Positions 31,324 to 40,789 of a stretch of DNA of 64,000 nt are shown here, piece after piece. Below the pieces are notes generated by a model that saw only the letters and a list, made by a program, of their open reading frames with translations, had not been told where the DNA came from and made no database searches. The position numbers and the translations under genes are program-made. Source of the DNA: Halobellus inordinatus (GTDB lineage Archaea; Halobacteriota; Halobacteria; Halobacteriales; Haloferacaceae). Where the stretch lies: positions 248,001 through 312,000 of the forward strand of contig NZ_JANHAV010000002.1 of assembly GCF_024464655.1 (NCBI RefSeq). Reading direction: 5' to 3'. Every line of letters starts with the position of its first letter. Position 1 is the stretch's first letter.

Positions 31324-34300
31324 ATGGCGCAGGCCCCCCAGGACTCACGCGACCTCACCGACCGGTTCATCCAGTTCTACCGCAAGTACTACCGCGACGA
31401 GATCGGCAAGCTCGCCCAGCAGTACCCGAACGAACAGCGGTCGCTGTACATCGACTACGAGGACCTCTACAAGTTCGATACGGAACTGGCCGAAGACTAC
31501 AAGAAGAAACCCGACCAGATCCGCGAGTACGCCGAGGAGGCGCTCCGCCTCTACGACCTCCCGGCGGACGTCAAACTCGGCCGCGCGCACGTCCGGCTCA
31601 CGCACCTCCCGGAAACGGTTGACATCCGCAGCATTCGCGTTCACGACGATCACATCGGGCGGATGATCGCGGTCCAGGGGATCGTCCGCAAGGCGACCGA
31701 CGTCCGACCGAAGATCACCGAGGCCGCTTTCGAGTGCCAGCGCTGCGGGACGATGACGTACATCCCGCAGTCCGACAGCGGCTTTCAGGAACCGCACGAG
31801 TGTCAGGGGTGTGAGCGCCAGGGACCGTTCCACGTCGACTTCGACCAGTCCGAGTTCATCGACGCACAGAAGGTTCGCGTCCAGGAGAGCCCCGAGGGCC
31901 TGCGGGGCGGCGAGACGCCACAGAGCATCGACATCGACCTCGAAGACGACGTCACCGGCGAAGTCACGGCCGGCGACCACGTCACTGTGACGGGCGTCCT
32001 CCACATCGAGCAGCAGACCTCCGGCAACGAGAAGACACCTATCTTCGACCTCTATATGGACGGCGTCGCGGTCGAAATCGAGGACGAGGAGTTCGAGGAT
32101 ATGGACATCACCGAGGAGGACGTCGCGGAGATCGTCGACCTCTCGAACGACCCCGACATCTACGAGAAGATGGTCGGCTCGGTCGCGCCCTCGATCTACG
32201 GCTACGAGCAGGAGAAACTCGCGATGATCCTCCAGCTCTTTTCGGGCGTCACCAAACACCTCCCGGACGGCTCGCGGATCCGCGGCGACCTCCACATGCT
32301 CTTGATCGGGGACCCTGGTACGGGTAAGTCCGCGATGCTCCAGTACATCCGGAACATCGCGCCCCGATCGGTGTACACCTCCGGGAAAGGCAGTTCGTCC
32401 GCCGGTCTCACGGCGGCCGCCGTCCGCGACGACTTCGGCGACGGCCAGCAGTGGACGCTCGAAGCCGGCGCGCTCGTGCTGGCAGACAAAGGAATCGCGG
32501 CTGTCGACGAGCTAGATAAGATGCGATCGGAGGACCGGAGTGCAATGCACGAAGCGCTGGAACAACAGTCATACCATCCGAAATCGGAGGTTTTACTCTC
32601 AGACGGCCGTCGCGTCGAGATCGGTCCGTTCGTGGACTCGATGATGGACGAGCGCGAGGGGGACGTCGTCGACGGCGTCGACTGCGAGATCCTCCCGGTC
32701 GAGGATGTCGGCGTCCACACTGTCGATCTCGACACGAACGACACCGAGAAGACCTCGGTCGATCGCGTGAGCAGGCACGAAGCCCCAGAGGAGTTCGTTC
32801 GGGTGTCCTTCTCGAACGGTCGCTCGGTTCTCGTCACTCCCGAACATCCGATGTTCGTCGACGACGACGGAGCGGTCGGAACGGTCGATGCCGCGGCGAT
32901 GTCTGTGGGCGATTTTGTCCCTGCGCCGCGAAAACTCCCGAACTCTGCAGCCCCACGGCCGCTCACTGACGGGGAGCACCGCGGCAAAGAGCGCGACGTC
33001 GACCTCCCGGACGAGATGTCGCCTGACCTCGCGGAGATGCTGGGGCTCTTGACGGCCGAAGGACACTCGTACTCCGGCGGTCGCACGCACGAAATCGGGT
33101 TCTCGAACCAAGACGACAGGCTCCTCGATCGGGCAGCGCAGTTGATGGCCGACATCTTCGGTCTCGAAAGCACGGACGCGGTGAACGGTGCTGGGACCAC
33201 GACGAAGCGATGGGTATCGACGAAACTGTACCGGTGGTTCGAGTCCAACTTCCCGGGCGTGATGCGGAAATCGAGGGACAAACGGATGCCGGACGCCGTC
33301 CTCGGTGCCTCCGAAGAAGAGATTCGCCGGTTCCTCGTCGGTGCGTTTGCGGGCGATGGCGGCGTCGAGAGTGAAGCGATGTCGTTTTCGACCGCTTCCG
33401 AAGGTCTCGCAGCGGATTACGCCGATGCGCTCGCGAAGCTTGGTATCGGGTCGCGAATTCACTATGATTCGGCCGAAGACGCCTGGAAGACGTACGTGAT
33501 GGGCGACTCCACCGAACGGTTCGTGTCGGCGGTCGTCGATCCTGCCGACGACCGTCACGAGAAGGCCCAAGCGTTCGCCGAGCGGAGCAACGAGACCGAA
33601 CGGCACCACGACGTTCTGCCGACGAGCGCAGCGCGAGAGATCAGATCGCTCAAACGACTGCTCGGTGTCCCTCTCGACGGTCGATTCCGCCCCGCACTCG
33701 ACGAGGGCTACGGCGTCCAAATTAGCACTGTTCAGGCAGAAGTCGAGTCGCTCCGAGATCGCATCGAAACAATCCGAAACGAGCTCGATTCGGCAGCGAC
33801 GCTCGCAGAAGCCAGAGATCTTATCGGCTGGTCCGGCAGACAGCTCGCCGAGCAGCTCCCGGACGCGACGACGAGCGCGGTTCACTACGCTGAAGACGGC
33901 GGCTACACCGCTGCGAGACGGGCATCGCTCCGCACAGGTGCCCTGGACGCGATCGCGGAGGCGCTCGACGAAGCGGACGAGCGGCTCGATGCCCTCGAAT
34001 CGCGATGCGACCTCCGATACTACCGCGTGACCGACGTCGAGACTGTCCCGAACGAGGGGGAACACGCCTGTGAGTGGGTCTACGACGTGACTGTCGAACC
34101 GACGAACACGTTCGTGAGCAAGGGCGTCGTCCTCCACAACTCTATTTCGGTATCCAAGGCCGGAATCAACGCGACCCTGAAATCCCGGTGTTCGCTGCTC
34201 GGCGCGGCAAACCCGAAGTACGGCCGCTTCGACCAGTACGAGCCGATCGGCGAGCAGATCGACCTCGAACCCGCGCTCATCTCGCGGTTCGACCTGATCT

Positions 34301-35007
34301 TCACGGTGACGGACAACCCCGACCCCGAGAGCGACGCCGAACTCGCAGAGCACATCATCAACACGAACTACGCGGGCGAACTCCACACCCAGAAGTCGAA
34401 GGTGCCGAGTTCGGAGTTCACCGATGGCGAAGTCGAGGACGCGACCGAGGAAGTCACGCCCGTCATCGACGCCGAACTCCTGCGGAAGTACATCGCCTAC
34501 GCGAAGCGCAACTGCTACCCGACGATGACCGACGAGGCGAAAGCGGTCATCCGCGACTTCTACGTCGACTTCCGCGCGAAGGGGGCCGACGACGACGCGC
34601 CGGTGCCGGTCACGGCCCGGAAGCTCGAAGCGCTCGTCAGGCTCTCGGAGGCGTCGGCGCGGCTCAGACTCTCTGACACCGTCGAACGCGAGGACGCGGT
34701 CCGAGTCACCGAAATAGTCGAATCCTGTCTCCGCGACATCGGGATGGACCCCGAGACCGGCGAGTTCGACGCCGACATCGTCGAGACCGGGACCTCGAAG
34801 AATCAGCGCGACCGCATCAAGGACATCAAGCACCTCATCGAAGAACTCGAAGACGAGTACGAGGAGGGCGCGCCGGTCGACGAGGTCATCGAACGGGCAG
34901 GCGGTGATCTCGGACTCGAAGAGTCGAAGGCCGAAGACGAGATCGAGAATCTCAAACGAAAGGGAGAGCTCTACGAACCGCGGCAGAACTACCTGCGGAC
35001 GACGTAG
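31324..35007 (+). CDS. mcm: Replicative helicase MCM interrupted by an intein
   Basis: A 1227-residue precursor, 703 residues after removal of the intein. The MCM N-domain has a zinc ribbon (CQRCGTMTYIPQ...CQGCERQG). The AAA+ part has Walker A GDPGTGKSAML, Walker B AAVDELDKM, sensor 1 GAANPKYG and arginine-finger motif SRFDLIF; a C-terminal winged helix ends the protein. Residues 416-939 are an intein in the sequence EQQ/SISVSKAGI between Walker B and sensor 1. A CTCTTACCC box 28 bp before the ATG predicts a leaderless mRNA. The following gene starts 1 bp after the stop. Confidence 0.97.
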   Translation: MAQAPQDSRDLTDRFIQFYRKYYRDEIGKLAQQYPNEQRSLYIDYEDLYKFDTELAEDYKKKPDQIREYAEEALRLYDLPADVKLGRAHVRLTHLPETVDIRSIRVHDDHIGRMIAVQGIVRKATDVRPKITEAAFECQRCGTMTYIPQSDSGFQEPHECQGCERQGPFHVDFDQSEFIDAQKVRVQESPEGLRGGETPQSIDIDLEDDVTGEVTAGDHVTVTGVLHIEQQTSGNEKTPIFDLYMDGVAVEIEDEEFEDMDITEEDVAEIVDLSNDPDIYEKMVGSVAPSIYGYEQEKLAMILQLFSGVTKHLPDGSRIRGDLHMLLIGDPGTGKSAMLQYIRNIAPRSVYTSGKGSSSAGLTAAAVRDDFGDGQQWTLEAGALVLADKGIAAVDELDKMRSEDRSAMHEALEQQSYHPKSEVLLSDGRRVEIGPFVDSMMDEREGDVVDGVDCEILPVEDVGVHTVDLDTNDTEKTSVDRVSRHEAPEEFVRVSFSNGRSVLVTPEHPMFVDDDGAVGTVDAAAMSVGDFVPAPRKLPNSAAPRPLTDGEHRGKERDVDLPDEMSPDLAEMLGLLTAEGHSYSGGRTHEIGFSNQDDRLLDRAAQLMADIFGLESTDAVNGAGTTTKRWVSTKLYRWFESNFPGVMRKSRDKRMPDAVLGASEEEIRRFLVGAFAGDGGVESEAMSFSTASEGLAADYADALAKLGIGSRIHYDSAEDAWKTYVMGDSTERFVSAVVDPADDRHEKAQAFAERSNETERHHDVLPTSAAREIRSLKRLLGVPLDGRFRPALDEGYGVQISTVQAEVESLRDRIETIRNELDSAATLAEARDLIGWSGRQLAEQLPDATTSAVHYAEDGGYTAARRASLRTGALDAIAEALDEADERLDALESRCDLRYYRVTDVETVPNEGEHACEWVYDVTVEPTNTFVSKGVVLHNSISVSKAGINATLKSRCSLLGAANPKYGRFDQYEPIGEQIDLEPALISRFDLIFTVTDNPDPESDAELAEHIINTNYAGELHTQKSKVPSSEFTDGEVEDATEEVTPVIDAELLRKYIAYAKRNCYPTMTDEAKAVIRDFYVDFRAKGADDDAPVPVTARKLEALVRLSEASARLRLSDTVEREDAVRVTEIVESCLRDIGMDPETGEFDADIVETGTSKNQRDRIKDIKHLIEELEDEYEEGAPVDEVIERAGGDLGLEESKAEDEIENLKRKGELYEPRQNYLRTT
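32569..34140 (+). other. Intein with LAGLIDADG homing endonuclease in mcm
   Basis: A 524-residue in-frame insertion. It starts with Ser (SYHPKSEVLLSDG), has the block B histidine in VLVTPEHPMFV (residue 93), two LAGLIDADG helices (LAEMLGLLTAEGH and FLVGAFAGDGGV) and ends in VYDVTVEPTNTFVSKGVVLHN, with Ser as the +1 extein residue. Splicing would therefore be Ser-Asn-Ser. An extra segment of about 130 residues between the endonuclease and the C-terminal splicing blocks is helical. Both endonuclease acidic residues are intact, so it may still be active. Confidence 0.95.
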
Positions 35008-35008
35008 A

Positions 35009-35293
35009 ATGGACCGCATCTCTGCCCTCCGGAACGTCGAGGAGGCCCTCAGCGACTTCGAGGCCGGCGAATCGGACCTCGCCGCGACCGAACAGCGCGT
35101 CGTGACCGTCCTGCGGACGTACGCCACCGACTTCGAGGGCGAAGGTGGGCTCCGTGCGTATCAGGCGACCGGCTCGGGCCGTGCGCACGGACTCGTCGTC
35201 GTCGCCGAGAGCGAGAACGATGCGCGCGAGCGGATCGCCGACCTCCTCGACGAACGACCGGACCACATCGACGCCGACATCTCGCCGGTGTAA
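35009..35293 (+). CDS. DUF7854-like haloarchaeal protein downstream of mcm
   Basis: A 94-residue protein opening MDRISALRNVEEALSDFEAGESDLAATEQRVVTVLRTYATDF. It starts 1 bp after the mcm stop, so it is co-transcribed and probably translationally coupled. A beta-alpha pattern follows (AHGLVVVAESENDARERIADLL). Its function is unknown; the tight link to mcm suggests, but does not show, a role near replication. Confidence 0.8.
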   Translation: MDRISALRNVEEALSDFEAGESDLAATEQRVVTVLRTYATDFEGEGGLRAYQATGSGRAHGLVVVAESENDARERIADLLDERPDHIDADISPV

Positions 35294-35331
35294 GTGGGTT
35301 TTTACCGCCGCCCGGAAATTGAGGCGTAGTC

Positions 35332-35670
35332 GTGTTGTTGGTAGTGACGTATTCGCGTCGGGCACGCGAGACGCTGCGAAACGCCTGTCGAGCACACGAA
35401 GAGACCGTCGTCCGGAAATTCGGTCGCGCCGCGCTCCTGCGGGAAACGGAGTACGGCGCCTTCTTGGCCTGTCGGCTTCGCGAGCGACACGCCGCCGACG
35501 TGCAAGTCGAACGCACGGAACCGTTCAACGAGTTCGCCGACGCGCCCGACGCGGTGCGAGAAGCCGCTGCCGCATACGAAAACCGGGAGTCGCCGAGCAC
35601 GCCGTACGACCGATTTGCCGCCGGAACCGACCATCCGGAGTCGGACGCGATGCGCGAGCGGGAACTGTGA
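35332..35670 (+). CDS. DUF7855-like haloarchaeal protein
   Basis: A 112-residue protein starting at a GTG at 35332 (MLLVVTYSRRARETLRNACRAHEETVVRKFGRAALL). The N-terminal half has a strand-helix pattern; the C-terminal part is acidic. It belongs to a conserved run of haloarchaeal genes after mcm. The stop overlaps the next gene's GTG start as GTGA. Confidence 0.78.
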   Translation: MLLVVTYSRRARETLRNACRAHEETVVRKFGRAALLRETEYGAFLACRLRERHAADVQVERTEPFNEFADAPDAVREAAAAYENRESPSTPYDRFAAGTDHPESDAMREREL

Positions 35671-36578
35671 GCGGCCGGTTCGATGCCGTCGCCGACACCG
35701 CTGTCCGTCTTCCCGACGGTTCGACGCGTGATGGGCCGATCGTCGACCTTCGTGACGTTGAACTCGGTCCCTCACGCGGTGCGCTCGATCGCGTGGTCTG
35801 CGCTGGCTGCCCGACGACGAGCGGCACGCTGGCCGTTCACTCGCCGCCTCCGCAGTCGGTCCACCGGCACGTGTCGCCACTCACGCCCGCAACGACGCTC
35901 GATCGTCGCGCTGCGCTGGCGGCGCTCGCTGCGGCGCGCGGTGTCGAGACGCCCTACGACGACGATCTTCGAACTGCGAGACGGTCGCTTCGCTCCGCGG
36001 CGCCCGCGGCGGTCGGCGTCGCAGAACTGCGTACCGCCCGTCGCCGCGCCGCAGAGGCCGGTGCCGAAACCGAACGGCTTCGGGAACGGGTCGCGACTAT
36101 CCGCGGCCGGGTGAACGCGCTTCGCGACGCGGATCACGGGACGAGTGACGACGGACTCGCAGAAGCCGAAGCGTCGCTCTCGGAGACGACCCGGCGGCTC
36201 TCCGAGGTCGCGACCGAGCGCGTCGCCGCCGCCCAGCGGCTGGAACTTCTCGAACGCAACGCACGGTCCGCACGCGACACCCGGGACGCACGACTGCGAC
36301 TCGAAGACCGCGCCGGAAACCTCGAACGAGCCGTTCGTGACGCTCGTATCGCGGCCGTCGAGGACGACTTTCGAGCCGCGCGCCGAACGGTTTCCGCTCG
36401 ACTCTCGCGGACCCGACCCCCTGACCCCGCCGTCTCGACCGGCGTCTGCGACGCCCTCGCGGTGGCCCGGGGCGCGCCGATCCGCGCACCGGTGGTCGTC
36501 GCGCCGGACCTCGTCGGCGCACTCGGCGGACCGACGTCGACACACGACGTCCTCGACGCGCCCATCCTGATCTGCTGA
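35667..36578 (+). CDS. DUF7856-like coiled-coil protein
   Basis: A 303-residue protein starting at a GTG that overlaps the preceding stop (GTGA). Residues 1-110 form a strand-rich domain with CAGCPTTSG; residues about 130-245 are a heptad-patterned coiled coil (RRAAEAGAETERLRERVATIRGRVNALRD and LSEVATERVAAAQRLELLERNAR). The end, CDALAVARGAPIRAPVVVAPDLVGAL, is conserved-looking. The coiled coil recalls SMC/Rad50 family proteins but no ATPase is present. Confidence 0.75.
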   Translation: MSGRFDAVADTAVRLPDGSTRDGPIVDLRDVELGPSRGALDRVVCAGCPTTSGTLAVHSPPPQSVHRHVSPLTPATTLDRRAALAALAAARGVETPYDDDLRTARRSLRSAAPAAVGVAELRTARRRAAEAGAETERLRERVATIRGRVNALRDADHGTSDDGLAEAEASLSETTRRLSEVATERVAAAQRLELLERNARSARDTRDARLRLEDRAGNLERAVRDARIAAVEDDFRAARRTVSARLSRTRPPDPAVSTGVCDALAVARGAPIRAPVVVAPDLVGALGGPTSTHDVLDAPILIC

Positions 36579-36635
36579 CGAGTCATACCCATTCTGAGAC
36601 GACAGTTTATGTACCTGCCCGCGGCCAGACCGCGC

Positions 36636-37511
36636 GTGCAGACCGACGCTCACGCCGCACCCGCCGATACGCCGCCAGTTCGAACGACGACCACCACCTC
36701 TCGCGTCGCGGGCGTGACGCTCGTGCGCGTCGAACTTCGTAGCGACCTCGCCGTCGAGATGCGCGTACGCGTCTCGAACGAACTCGATGGGCCCGTTCTC
36801 CCGCCGCGTCGTGCGGGCGTCCCGTCTGCCGGCTGGGATGCGGACGGATTCTCGGGGACGATCCCCGCCTCGGGACGACTCGGCATCGGATACGCCTGTC
36901 CGGCGGTGAACGATCCGGATCGCTCGCCGGCTGCATCTGCAGACGACCCGGGAGAATCCTCGGACGAATCCCCGGGCGTATCCTCGGATAATCCGGACGC
37001 GTCTGTCGTCTCCGTCGACCTCCTCGGCCCCGCGGACGCCGACACCGACGAGCGTGACCTAGTCAGTTCGGCCGTCCGGACGCTCGGGCGTGCGACTCCG
37101 CCCGCCGACGCCGTGCCGACTGAGACGGCCGCTGCGCCGCATCCGGAGCATTCGCACGGTGAACCGGATGATGATGGCGGGGCTGACGCTCCGCTTCCCG
37201 ACGCCCTCGACGCGTGGCTCGACGCGGTCGAAACGCGCGTGGAACACGCCGAGCGACTGACCGACGCGTCTGTTTCCGAGGCGACTGCGGTGCTCGACGC
37301 CTGCGGCGGCATCGATCCGGTTTCAGAGCTCCCCGATTCGCTCGCTGCCGATAGAAGAGCACTCCGGACCGTCGCGGCGCGGATCGACGACCTCGCCGCT
37401 CGTGCGGCTGTTGCTGACCCCGACCCAGTCGTCTCGGCGCTGGCAGAGGCTGCCGAGGGGTCAGCGGTGCGAGAGACCCCGACGGCGTCGCCGTCCACGG
37501 AGGACCGATGA
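36636..37511 (+). CDS. DUF7857-like haloarchaeal protein
   Basis: A protein of about 291 residues starting at a GTG (VQTDAHAAPADTPP). It has a beta-rich N-terminal domain (VRTTTTTSRVAGVTLVRVELRSDLAVEMRVRVSNELDGPV), a low-complexity acidic middle with repeated PGESSDESPGVSSD, and a helical C-terminus. An ATG at 36609 lies inside the TTTATGT box itself, so the GTG 27 bp downstream is the more likely leaderless start. Its end overlaps the MinD-like ATG as ATGA. Confidence 0.7.
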   Translation: MQTDAHAAPADTPPVRTTTTTSRVAGVTLVRVELRSDLAVEMRVRVSNELDGPVLPPRRAGVPSAGWDADGFSGTIPASGRLGIGYACPAVNDPDRSPAASADDPGESSDESPGVSSDNPDASVVSVDLLGPADADTDERDLVSSAVRTLGRATPPADAVPTETAAAPHPEHSHGEPDDDGGADAPLPDALDAWLDAVETRVEHAERLTDASVSEATAVLDACGGIDPVSELPDSLAADRRALRTVAARIDDLAARAAVADPDPVVSALAEAAEGSAVRETPTASPSTEDR

Positions 37512-38176
37512 TCCTCGCCGTCACCGGCGGCAAAGGCGGCGTCGGCAAGTCGACGCTCTCGGTCGAATGCGGTGCGGCGCTCGACGCGACGGTCGTCGAC
37601 GCCGACCTCGGGATGGCCGATCTCCCGACCGGTCCCGGCCCGGACCTCCACGACGTGCTGGCCGGTCGTGCCGATCCCCTCGAAGCGGTTCGTGAGGGGC
37701 GCGGTCCGGTACGCTTGCTCCCTTGCGGACGATCACTCGCGGGCGCTCGGGCGGCGGACGTCACGGCTCTCGACGAGACGCTTCGCGCCGTCGAGCGTGC
37801 GTACGGCGACGTCGTAGTCGACTGCCCGGCGGGAATGAAAGCCGACGCGGGCGTTCCCCTGGCGGTCGCAGACGCCTGCGTCGTCGTGGCGTCACCGCAG
37901 TCGTACGCGCTCGCCGACGCCGTTCGCTCGCGGGAGCTCGCCCGCGAACTCGACGCGGGACTCGTCGCCGTCGTGATCAACCGTGCCGTCGACGACCCAC
38001 CGGAGCGAGCCTTCGAGGAAGTGCTCGGCGCCCCCGCGGTCACCGTGCCCGCCGATCCACGCATCGGAGCGACGATCGAGTCGTTCAGTCCCGTCGTCCG
38101 ATCCGCGCCGTCGACACGAGCGGCTCGCGCGGTGGTGACGGTCGCCGACGCGGTCCAGCGGGCCAAGCGAGTCTAA
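37508..38176 (+). CDS. MinD/ParA-type ATPase
   Basis: A 222-residue deviant Walker ATPase with VTGGKGGVGKSTLSVE (signature lysine and P-loop lysine both present), DADLGMADLPTG as switch I and VVVDCPAGM as Walker B. MinD proteins in haloarchaea place proteins such as flagellar and chemosensory complexes at poles and do not act in division site choice. It overlaps the DUF7857-like gene by 4 bp and so belongs to the mcm-linked cluster. No C-terminal amphipathic membrane-targeting helix is obvious. Confidence 0.9.
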   Translation: MILAVTGGKGGVGKSTLSVECGAALDATVVDADLGMADLPTGPGPDLHDVLAGRADPLEAVREGRGPVRLLPCGRSLAGARAADVTALDETLRAVERAYGDVVVDCPAGMKADAGVPLAVADACVVVASPQSYALADAVRSRELARELDAGLVAVVINRAVDDPPERAFEEVLGAPAVTVPADPRIGATIESFSPVVRSAPSTRAARAVVTVADAVQRAKRV

Positions 38177-40027: not shown

Positions 40028-40789
40028 CTACCGACCGACGTACTCGCCGACGGTACCGAGGAGCCCGCTCTGTTCGGTGTCGGTGCCCGCAATTTCACGC
40101 CCTGTCACCGCGGCCGCGACGCGCTCGATCGCCGCGGCGAATGCGCTGTCCTCGTTCGGGACCCGTGGTTCCGTCTGTACGTCGAGCGACCCCGCGTCGG
40201 GGATCGAGACGTCGGCCGTTTCGAGTTCGCCGCGCGTCGACACGACGAGCGACGCTTCTGCGCCGACGTCGGCGAGGCGCTCGTGGGTCCGCTGGATTGC
40301 GGTCGCGCCGCGGTCGCTCGCCGGTGCGACGACGGCGACGCGGTCTGCAACATTCACCGCGGCGACGGCCTGGTTCGCCGCGACCGGCGGGACGTCGAGG
40401 AGGACGTGGTCGAACCGCGACGCCGCAGTCGCGATGCGGGATTCCAACGCCTGTACGGCGCCCACGCGCTTTGCGCGAGCCAGGCGCTCGAAAGGCGCGT
40501 GCGCTGGACAGACGGCGATGCGACCGGCGACGTCGCGGCCGACGTCGAGTTCGGAGAGGCCGGTCGAGAGATCGGCGCCCTCCTCGTCGGTCACGAGCGC
40601 CGTCACGTCGGGATCGATTCGCCCCGTGAGGTAGTCGCTGAGTCCTTGCGTTCCGAACGCGGCGTCGACGACGGCGACCGTCCGGCCGTCGGTCGCGAGC
40701 GCGGCGGCCACCTCGACGACCGTTCGGGTCGTTCCCGCGCCGCCCGTCGCGCCGACGAACGCCGCAACGCCTGGCGGTTGTGCAGACAT
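40028..40789 (-). CDS. ParA/MinD-like protein without the Walker A lysine
   Basis: A 253-residue protein with the overall MinD/ParA fold: VAAFVGATGGAGTTRTVVEVAAALA, VVDAAFGTQGLSDYLTG, and DHVLLDVPPVAANQAVAAVNVADRVAVVAP. In the P-loop the GKGGVGKT pattern has become GATGGAGTT, losing both the signature and the P-loop lysine, so normal ATP binding is not expected. A family of such proteins seems to be conserved in haloarchaea. A family A element lies 13 bp after its stop. Confidence 0.85.
   Translation of the reverse strand: MSAQPPGVAAFVGATGGAGTTRTVVEVAAALATDGRTVAVVDAAFGTQGLSDYLTGRIDPDVTALVTDEEGADLSTGLSELDVGRDVAGRIAVCPAHAPFERLARAKRVGAVQALESRIATAASRFDHVLLDVPPVAANQAVAAVNVADRVAVVAPASDRGATAIQRTHERLADVGAEASLVVSTRGELETADVSIPDAGSLDVQTEPRVPNEDSAFAAAIERVAAAVTGREIAGTDTEQSGLLGTVGEYVGR

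Follow-up and report, generated by a model that had tools for sequence, protein, structure and literature searches.

The genes downstream of mcm in the window, a stretch of 64,000 nucleotides from Halobellus inordinatus, split into two modules, DUF7854/DUF7855/DUF7856 and DUF7857-MinD. DUF7857 and the MinD-type ATPase, which belongs to the MinD1 clade, are inherited together, adjacent and overlapping, independently of mcm, with intact ATPase motifs and predicted folds, and they probably (at a rough probability of 0.6) constitute an obligate, translationally coupled two-component module in which MinD1 would be the switch and DUF7857 its dedicated partner. An obligate neighbour that is moved, lost and duplicated with MinD1 would provide a concrete first partner candidate for this ATPase, and the pairing redirects attention away from replication. 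The gene run comprises the following features:

31324..35007, forward strand: mcm, replicative helicase, with MCM, MCM_OB, MCM_lid, MCM_WH_arc, Intein_splicing and LAGLIDADG_3 domains
35009..35293, forward strand: DUF7854 protein, 94 aa (Pfam E 7e-39)
35332..35670, forward strand: DUF7855 protein, 112 aa, GTG start (Pfam E 7e-58)
35667..36578, forward strand: DUF7856 protein, 303 aa, GTG start (Pfam E 8e-82)
36636..37511, forward strand: DUF7857 protein, start at 36636 (GTG) or 36609 (ATG) (Pfam E 9e-33)
37508..38176, forward strand: MinD-type ATPase (MinD1 clade), 222 aa, matching P-loop ATPase families (Pfam) and the structure 1hyq

All five genes lie on the strand of mcm, and the spacings from mcm through MinD (1, 38, -4, 57 and -4 bp), which had been given in an earlier, sequence-only reading of this DNA, were reproduced throughout from the ORF calls and the sequence. 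The mcm stop at 35007 is separated by 1 bp from the ATG of DUF7854 at 35009, DUF7855 and DUF7856 overlap by 4 bp, and the MinD ATG at 37508 overlaps DUF7857 by 4 bp (ATGA). The 38 bp gap before DUF7855 follows from the GTG at 35332, with a TTG start at 35335 being equally possible, while the start of DUF7857 at 36636 leaves a gap of 57 bp and the ATG at 36609 one of 30 bp, the latter being closer to the commonest DUF7857 spacing in relatives (24-26 bp). Bit scores against the Pfam gathering thresholds were 132 against 32 for DUF7854, 194 against 27 for DUF7855, 276 against 30.2 for DUF7856 and 114 against 27 for DUF7857. The same reading had recognised uncharacterised families, a coiled-coil protein and a deviant Walker ATPase, and indeed the four DUF families are undescribed, a long charged helical, coiled-coil-like middle is evident from the sequence of DUF7856, and the ATPase is of the MinD type, with KGGVGKST and DCPAG. 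The window mcm itself carries an intein of ~520 aa between EALEQQ and SISVSKAG, and the ORF lengths of mcm in relatives suggest that the presence of this intein is variable.

We surveyed 195 genomes of the order (haloarchaea), 157 of them of good quality, and used iterated profiles to annotate 80 regions surrounding DUF7855 and a further 20 surrounding DUF7857 where it lay apart from DUF7855/DUF7856. DUF7854 was present in 114 genomes, DUF7855 in 114, DUF7856 in 109, DUF7857 in 122 and the MinD1 clade in 120, and all five families occurred together in 102. The gene order is kept far beyond close relatives, being met again in many families of the order, hence the gene run is not a product of chance. 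DUF7855 is strongly conserved (44-73% identity to 50 homologues), and a phylum sample gave nothing above the cut-off for DUF7857 outside the order, with one sub-threshold match there. In 31 of 75 loci, including L092, L107 and L149, a DUF7504 gene (~210 aa) lies between DUF7854 and DUF7855, a place where it is absent in the window; none of the 24 inserted DUF7504 genes checked carried GxxxxGK[ST]. We had considered this inserted segment as a possible RNA, but it had no Rfam match and is the DUF7504 gene.

The pairing of DUF7857 with MinD1 is seen in their joint distribution. Both were found in 118 of the 195 genomes, DUF7857 alone in four, MinD1 alone in two and neither in 71 (phi 0.93); phi among DUF7854, DUF7855 and DUF7856 was 0.91-0.95, and between the two modules 0.70-0.81. 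Wherever a locus held both genes they were adjacent (88/88), and the exact 4-bp overlap was counted in 82 of these 88 loci, including nearly all sites away from mcm; in L105 and L115 the deviation was an artefact of start calling, and the corrected starts also give a 4-bp overlap. An overlap of this length between DUF7855 and DUF7856 occurs in 41 of 79 loci. The pair was retained in all 20 loci in which DUF7857 lies apart from DUF7855/DUF7856, the extra copies in G054 and G098 likewise come as DUF7857-MinD1 pairs, and 16 genomes have the pair without any of DUF7854, DUF7855 and DUF7856. Counting against an obligate pair, the four genomes of one genus (g39) have DUF7857 without MinD1. One of them (G043) contains a single ORF of 527 aa joining DUF7856 and DUF7857 (L144:5700-7283, reverse strand), which may be a natural fusion, a lost stop or a sequencing error, and which favours a connection of one module with the other. 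Distance correlations from which the mcm signal had been removed were 0.38 for DUF7857-MinD1, 0.49 for DUF7855-DUF7856 and 0.48 for DUF7856-DUF7857, and thus do not single out the DUF7857-MinD1 pair.

Judging from its motifs, MinD1 is expected to be an active ATPase, since the deviant Walker motif KGGxGK[ST] with the signature lysine is kept in 87 of 87 MinD1 sequences and D[CST]PAG (the DxPAG Walker B region) in 81 of 87. Homology to the solved MinD of Archaeoglobus and Pyrococcus extends over nearly the full ATPase domain (1hyq, E 3.1e-26 over residues 3-216; 1g3q, E 1e-21), whereas the window MinD differs from these in its shorter C-terminus and in its score of 129.6 bits with NCBIfam minD_arch (TIGR01969), which is under the curated cut-off of 201.75. 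Only a short, variable tail (median 26 residues) extends beyond window residue 196, and no conserved C-terminal membrane-targeting extension was evident in the MinD1 sequences. With bacterial Min/ParA systems MinD1 shares the deviant Walker A motif, the DxPAG motif and an operon with a partner; however, a Pfam search of its window neighbours found no match to MinC or MinE families, and the proposed partner here is DUF7857, a predicted Ig-like sandwich without significant structural match. An obligatory link of MinD1 to chemotaxis was considered and rejected, as several MinD1-bearing genomes are without CheW (e.g., G060, G076, G084, G092, G132, G153, G183, and G022).

The AlphaFold model of DUF7857 consists of an N-terminal Ig-like beta-sandwich (block pLDDT 91-97), a disordered linker and a C-terminal helical bundle (block pLDDT mostly 92-97). 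Short members of the family (~120 aa) are the sandwich only, and the helical bundle is often, but not always, present. The best Foldseek matches of DUF7857 were PapD-like, mu-homology and carbohydrate-binding sandwiches, none of them below E 0.001. DUF7855 is modelled as a beta-alpha-beta-beta-alpha-beta (ferredoxin-like) fold with a helical tail (pLDDT 95); its best structure matches, VapD and Cas2-like ferredoxin folds, have E values of 0.2 or more and were not accepted as homologues, and PDB sequence searches with the DUF7855 and DUF7857 profiles returned chance matches only. We propose that MinD1 would act as an ATP-dependent dimerising switch with a putative ATPase cycle, and that DUF7857, via its Ig-like domain, would be a dedicated cargo adaptor or ATPase regulator that may bind MinD1 physically, possibly depending on the nucleotide, with a presumed role in cargo handling or localisation.

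Such a module would follow mcm through ancestral gene order and not through work at the replisome, the ancestral order presumably being mcm, DUF7854, optionally DUF7504, DUF7855, DUF7856, DUF7857, MinD1 and a convergent TFB gene, with DUF7854, DUF7855 and DUF7856 as a second module that would have been lost separately. The linkage to mcm emphasised by the sequence-only reading holds only in part, as the order is widely kept and yet breaks from mcm repeatedly. At least 18 of 195 genomes carry DUF7857-MinD1 at a site apart from mcm (G002, G008, G026, G038, G052, G163 and a group of genomes from f7 and f4), although in two f7 genomes (L182, L185) the pair stands directly after mcm. MinD1 sequences with and without mcm linkage form one group in the tree (90/93), on which the linkage label changes about six times by parsimony, at least three of these on well-supported branches. 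G180 and G147 have the entire block at a great distance from mcm. In eight f7/f4 loci (L177, L178, L181, L183, L186, L187, L188, and L190), the pair away from mcm adjoins a gene for a MinD-like protein of ~430 aa, which groups with the third MinD paralogue of the window genome.

It could be argued that the genes simply ride on the mcm transcript as an inherited neighbourhood, functionally unrelated to MCM or across modules. The convergent TFB gene, on the opposite strand, is kept beside MinD1 in 46 of 64 loci, and in many loci a MinD-like gene lies beyond it, so that the neighbourhood is evidently stable here without operon membership; in several block-free genomes the convergent TFB gene follows mcm directly. 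Genes are also lost piecemeal, G149 retaining only a DUF7504-like gene and G106 only DUF7855. However, this explanation leaves the joint loss, movement and duplication of DUF7857-MinD1 with its fixed overlap unexplained, as well as the co-occurrence of 0.91-0.95 among DUF7854, DUF7855 and DUF7856, and as a full account we regard it as unlikely.

The sequence-only reading had instead proposed a task shared with the helicase, the whole run being a replication operon whose DUF proteins and MinD would join MCM in positioning the replisome or chromosome. ParA/MinD proteins position chromosomes in bacteria, and besides the order kept in many families, DUF7854 lies within 60 bp of mcm in 62 of 71 loci (usual gap in relatives 0-2 bp) and stays with mcm in G182, G187 and G137, where DUF7855 to MinD1 are found elsewhere. 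Since the position of even the opposite-strand TFB gene is stable here, the conserved place beside mcm is nevertheless weak evidence of a joint task. The archaeal MCM winged-helix domain was detected in 157 of 157 good genomes, whereas the DUF families (94-107/157) and MinD1 (104/157) place the block in about two thirds of them, and in the remaining third or so it is missing or decaying; universal co-inheritance with mcm, as would mark a replisome operon, was thus found neither for the DUF families nor for MinD1. In G045, G116, G056 and G190, DUF7854 or DUF7855 persists as a truncated or interrupted remnant, in some cases with stops, which points to loss rather than late gain, and the block downstream of mcm is conserved but dispensable. 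In a published survey of the surroundings of haloarchaeal mcm genes, none of the core genes had a known replication gene as a neighbour (PMC3972481). Deletions without effect, which the sequence-only reading would have held against a joint task, are on record in part: according to PMC11588486, which cites Nussbaum 2020, growth and division of Haloferax volcanii were unaffected when all four minD genes, minD1 included, were deleted. Taken with the repeated separation of the block from mcm, these data make a replication operon very improbable. A single complex or pathway of all five proteins, unrelated to replication and bridged by a DUF7856-DUF7857 contact, would agree with the 102 genomes holding all five families, the joined ORF of L144 and the DUF7856-DUF7857 correlation of 0.48, but is similarly improbable given the 16 genomes that have the pair and none of the other three, and given that the joined ORF is a single case, possibly a lost stop or sequencing error, from a genus without MinD1.

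Returning to the DUF7857-MinD1 module, the window MinD most probably corresponds to H. volcanii MinD1 (HVO_0225), which is likewise of the MinD type and whose gene is numbered a few locus tags beyond mcm (HVO_0220), as inferred from this locus-tag distance and from the four families DUF7854, DUF7855, DUF7856 and DUF7857, all of which were detected in H. volcanii as a control genome. Scanning the named genomes with the MinD alignment gave matches dominated by unrelated MinD/ParA proteins. H. volcanii has four MinD proteins, two of which affect motility and cell organisation (PMC11621097, PMC11588486); the function of MinD1 is undescribed, and the motility defect of the quadruple minD mutant equals that of minD2/4 (PMC11621097). 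Our literature search found no mention of HVO_0221 to HVO_0224 or of DUF7856/7857. No MinE-equivalent partner has been identified in H. volcanii (PMC11621097, PMC11588486), and it is conceivable, though doubtful, that DUF7857 fills this gap as a new class of MinD partner, i.e., an Ig-like dedicated regulator or cargo adaptor. A close parallel is MinD2 (HVO_0595) with HVO_0596, where a MinD paralogue is again accompanied by an uncharacterised, conserved protein, the two probably sharing one operon (PMC11588486), although HVO_0596 is downstream of MinD2 and DUF7857 upstream of MinD1. AlphaFold 3 predicted that MinD2 binds HVO_0596, yet the experimental data spoke against direct contact (PMC11588486), which is a warning for DUF7857-MinD1 binding inferred from adjacency. 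At a locus of a MinD paralogue in the window genome (L192), the downstream protein looks unrelated.

The window also encodes a second MinD-like protein (40028-40789, reverse strand), in which the P-loop lysine is missing (GGAGTTR). In G149, whose genus otherwise has the block, mcm is followed by the lone DUF7504-like gene and then by the MinD-like pseudo-ATPase, all other genes of the block being lost (L194). The lysine-free motif of the second window protein was also found in 44 of 45 homologues beside the 40028-40789 locus in relatives, suggesting that this protein is a conserved pseudo-ATPase.
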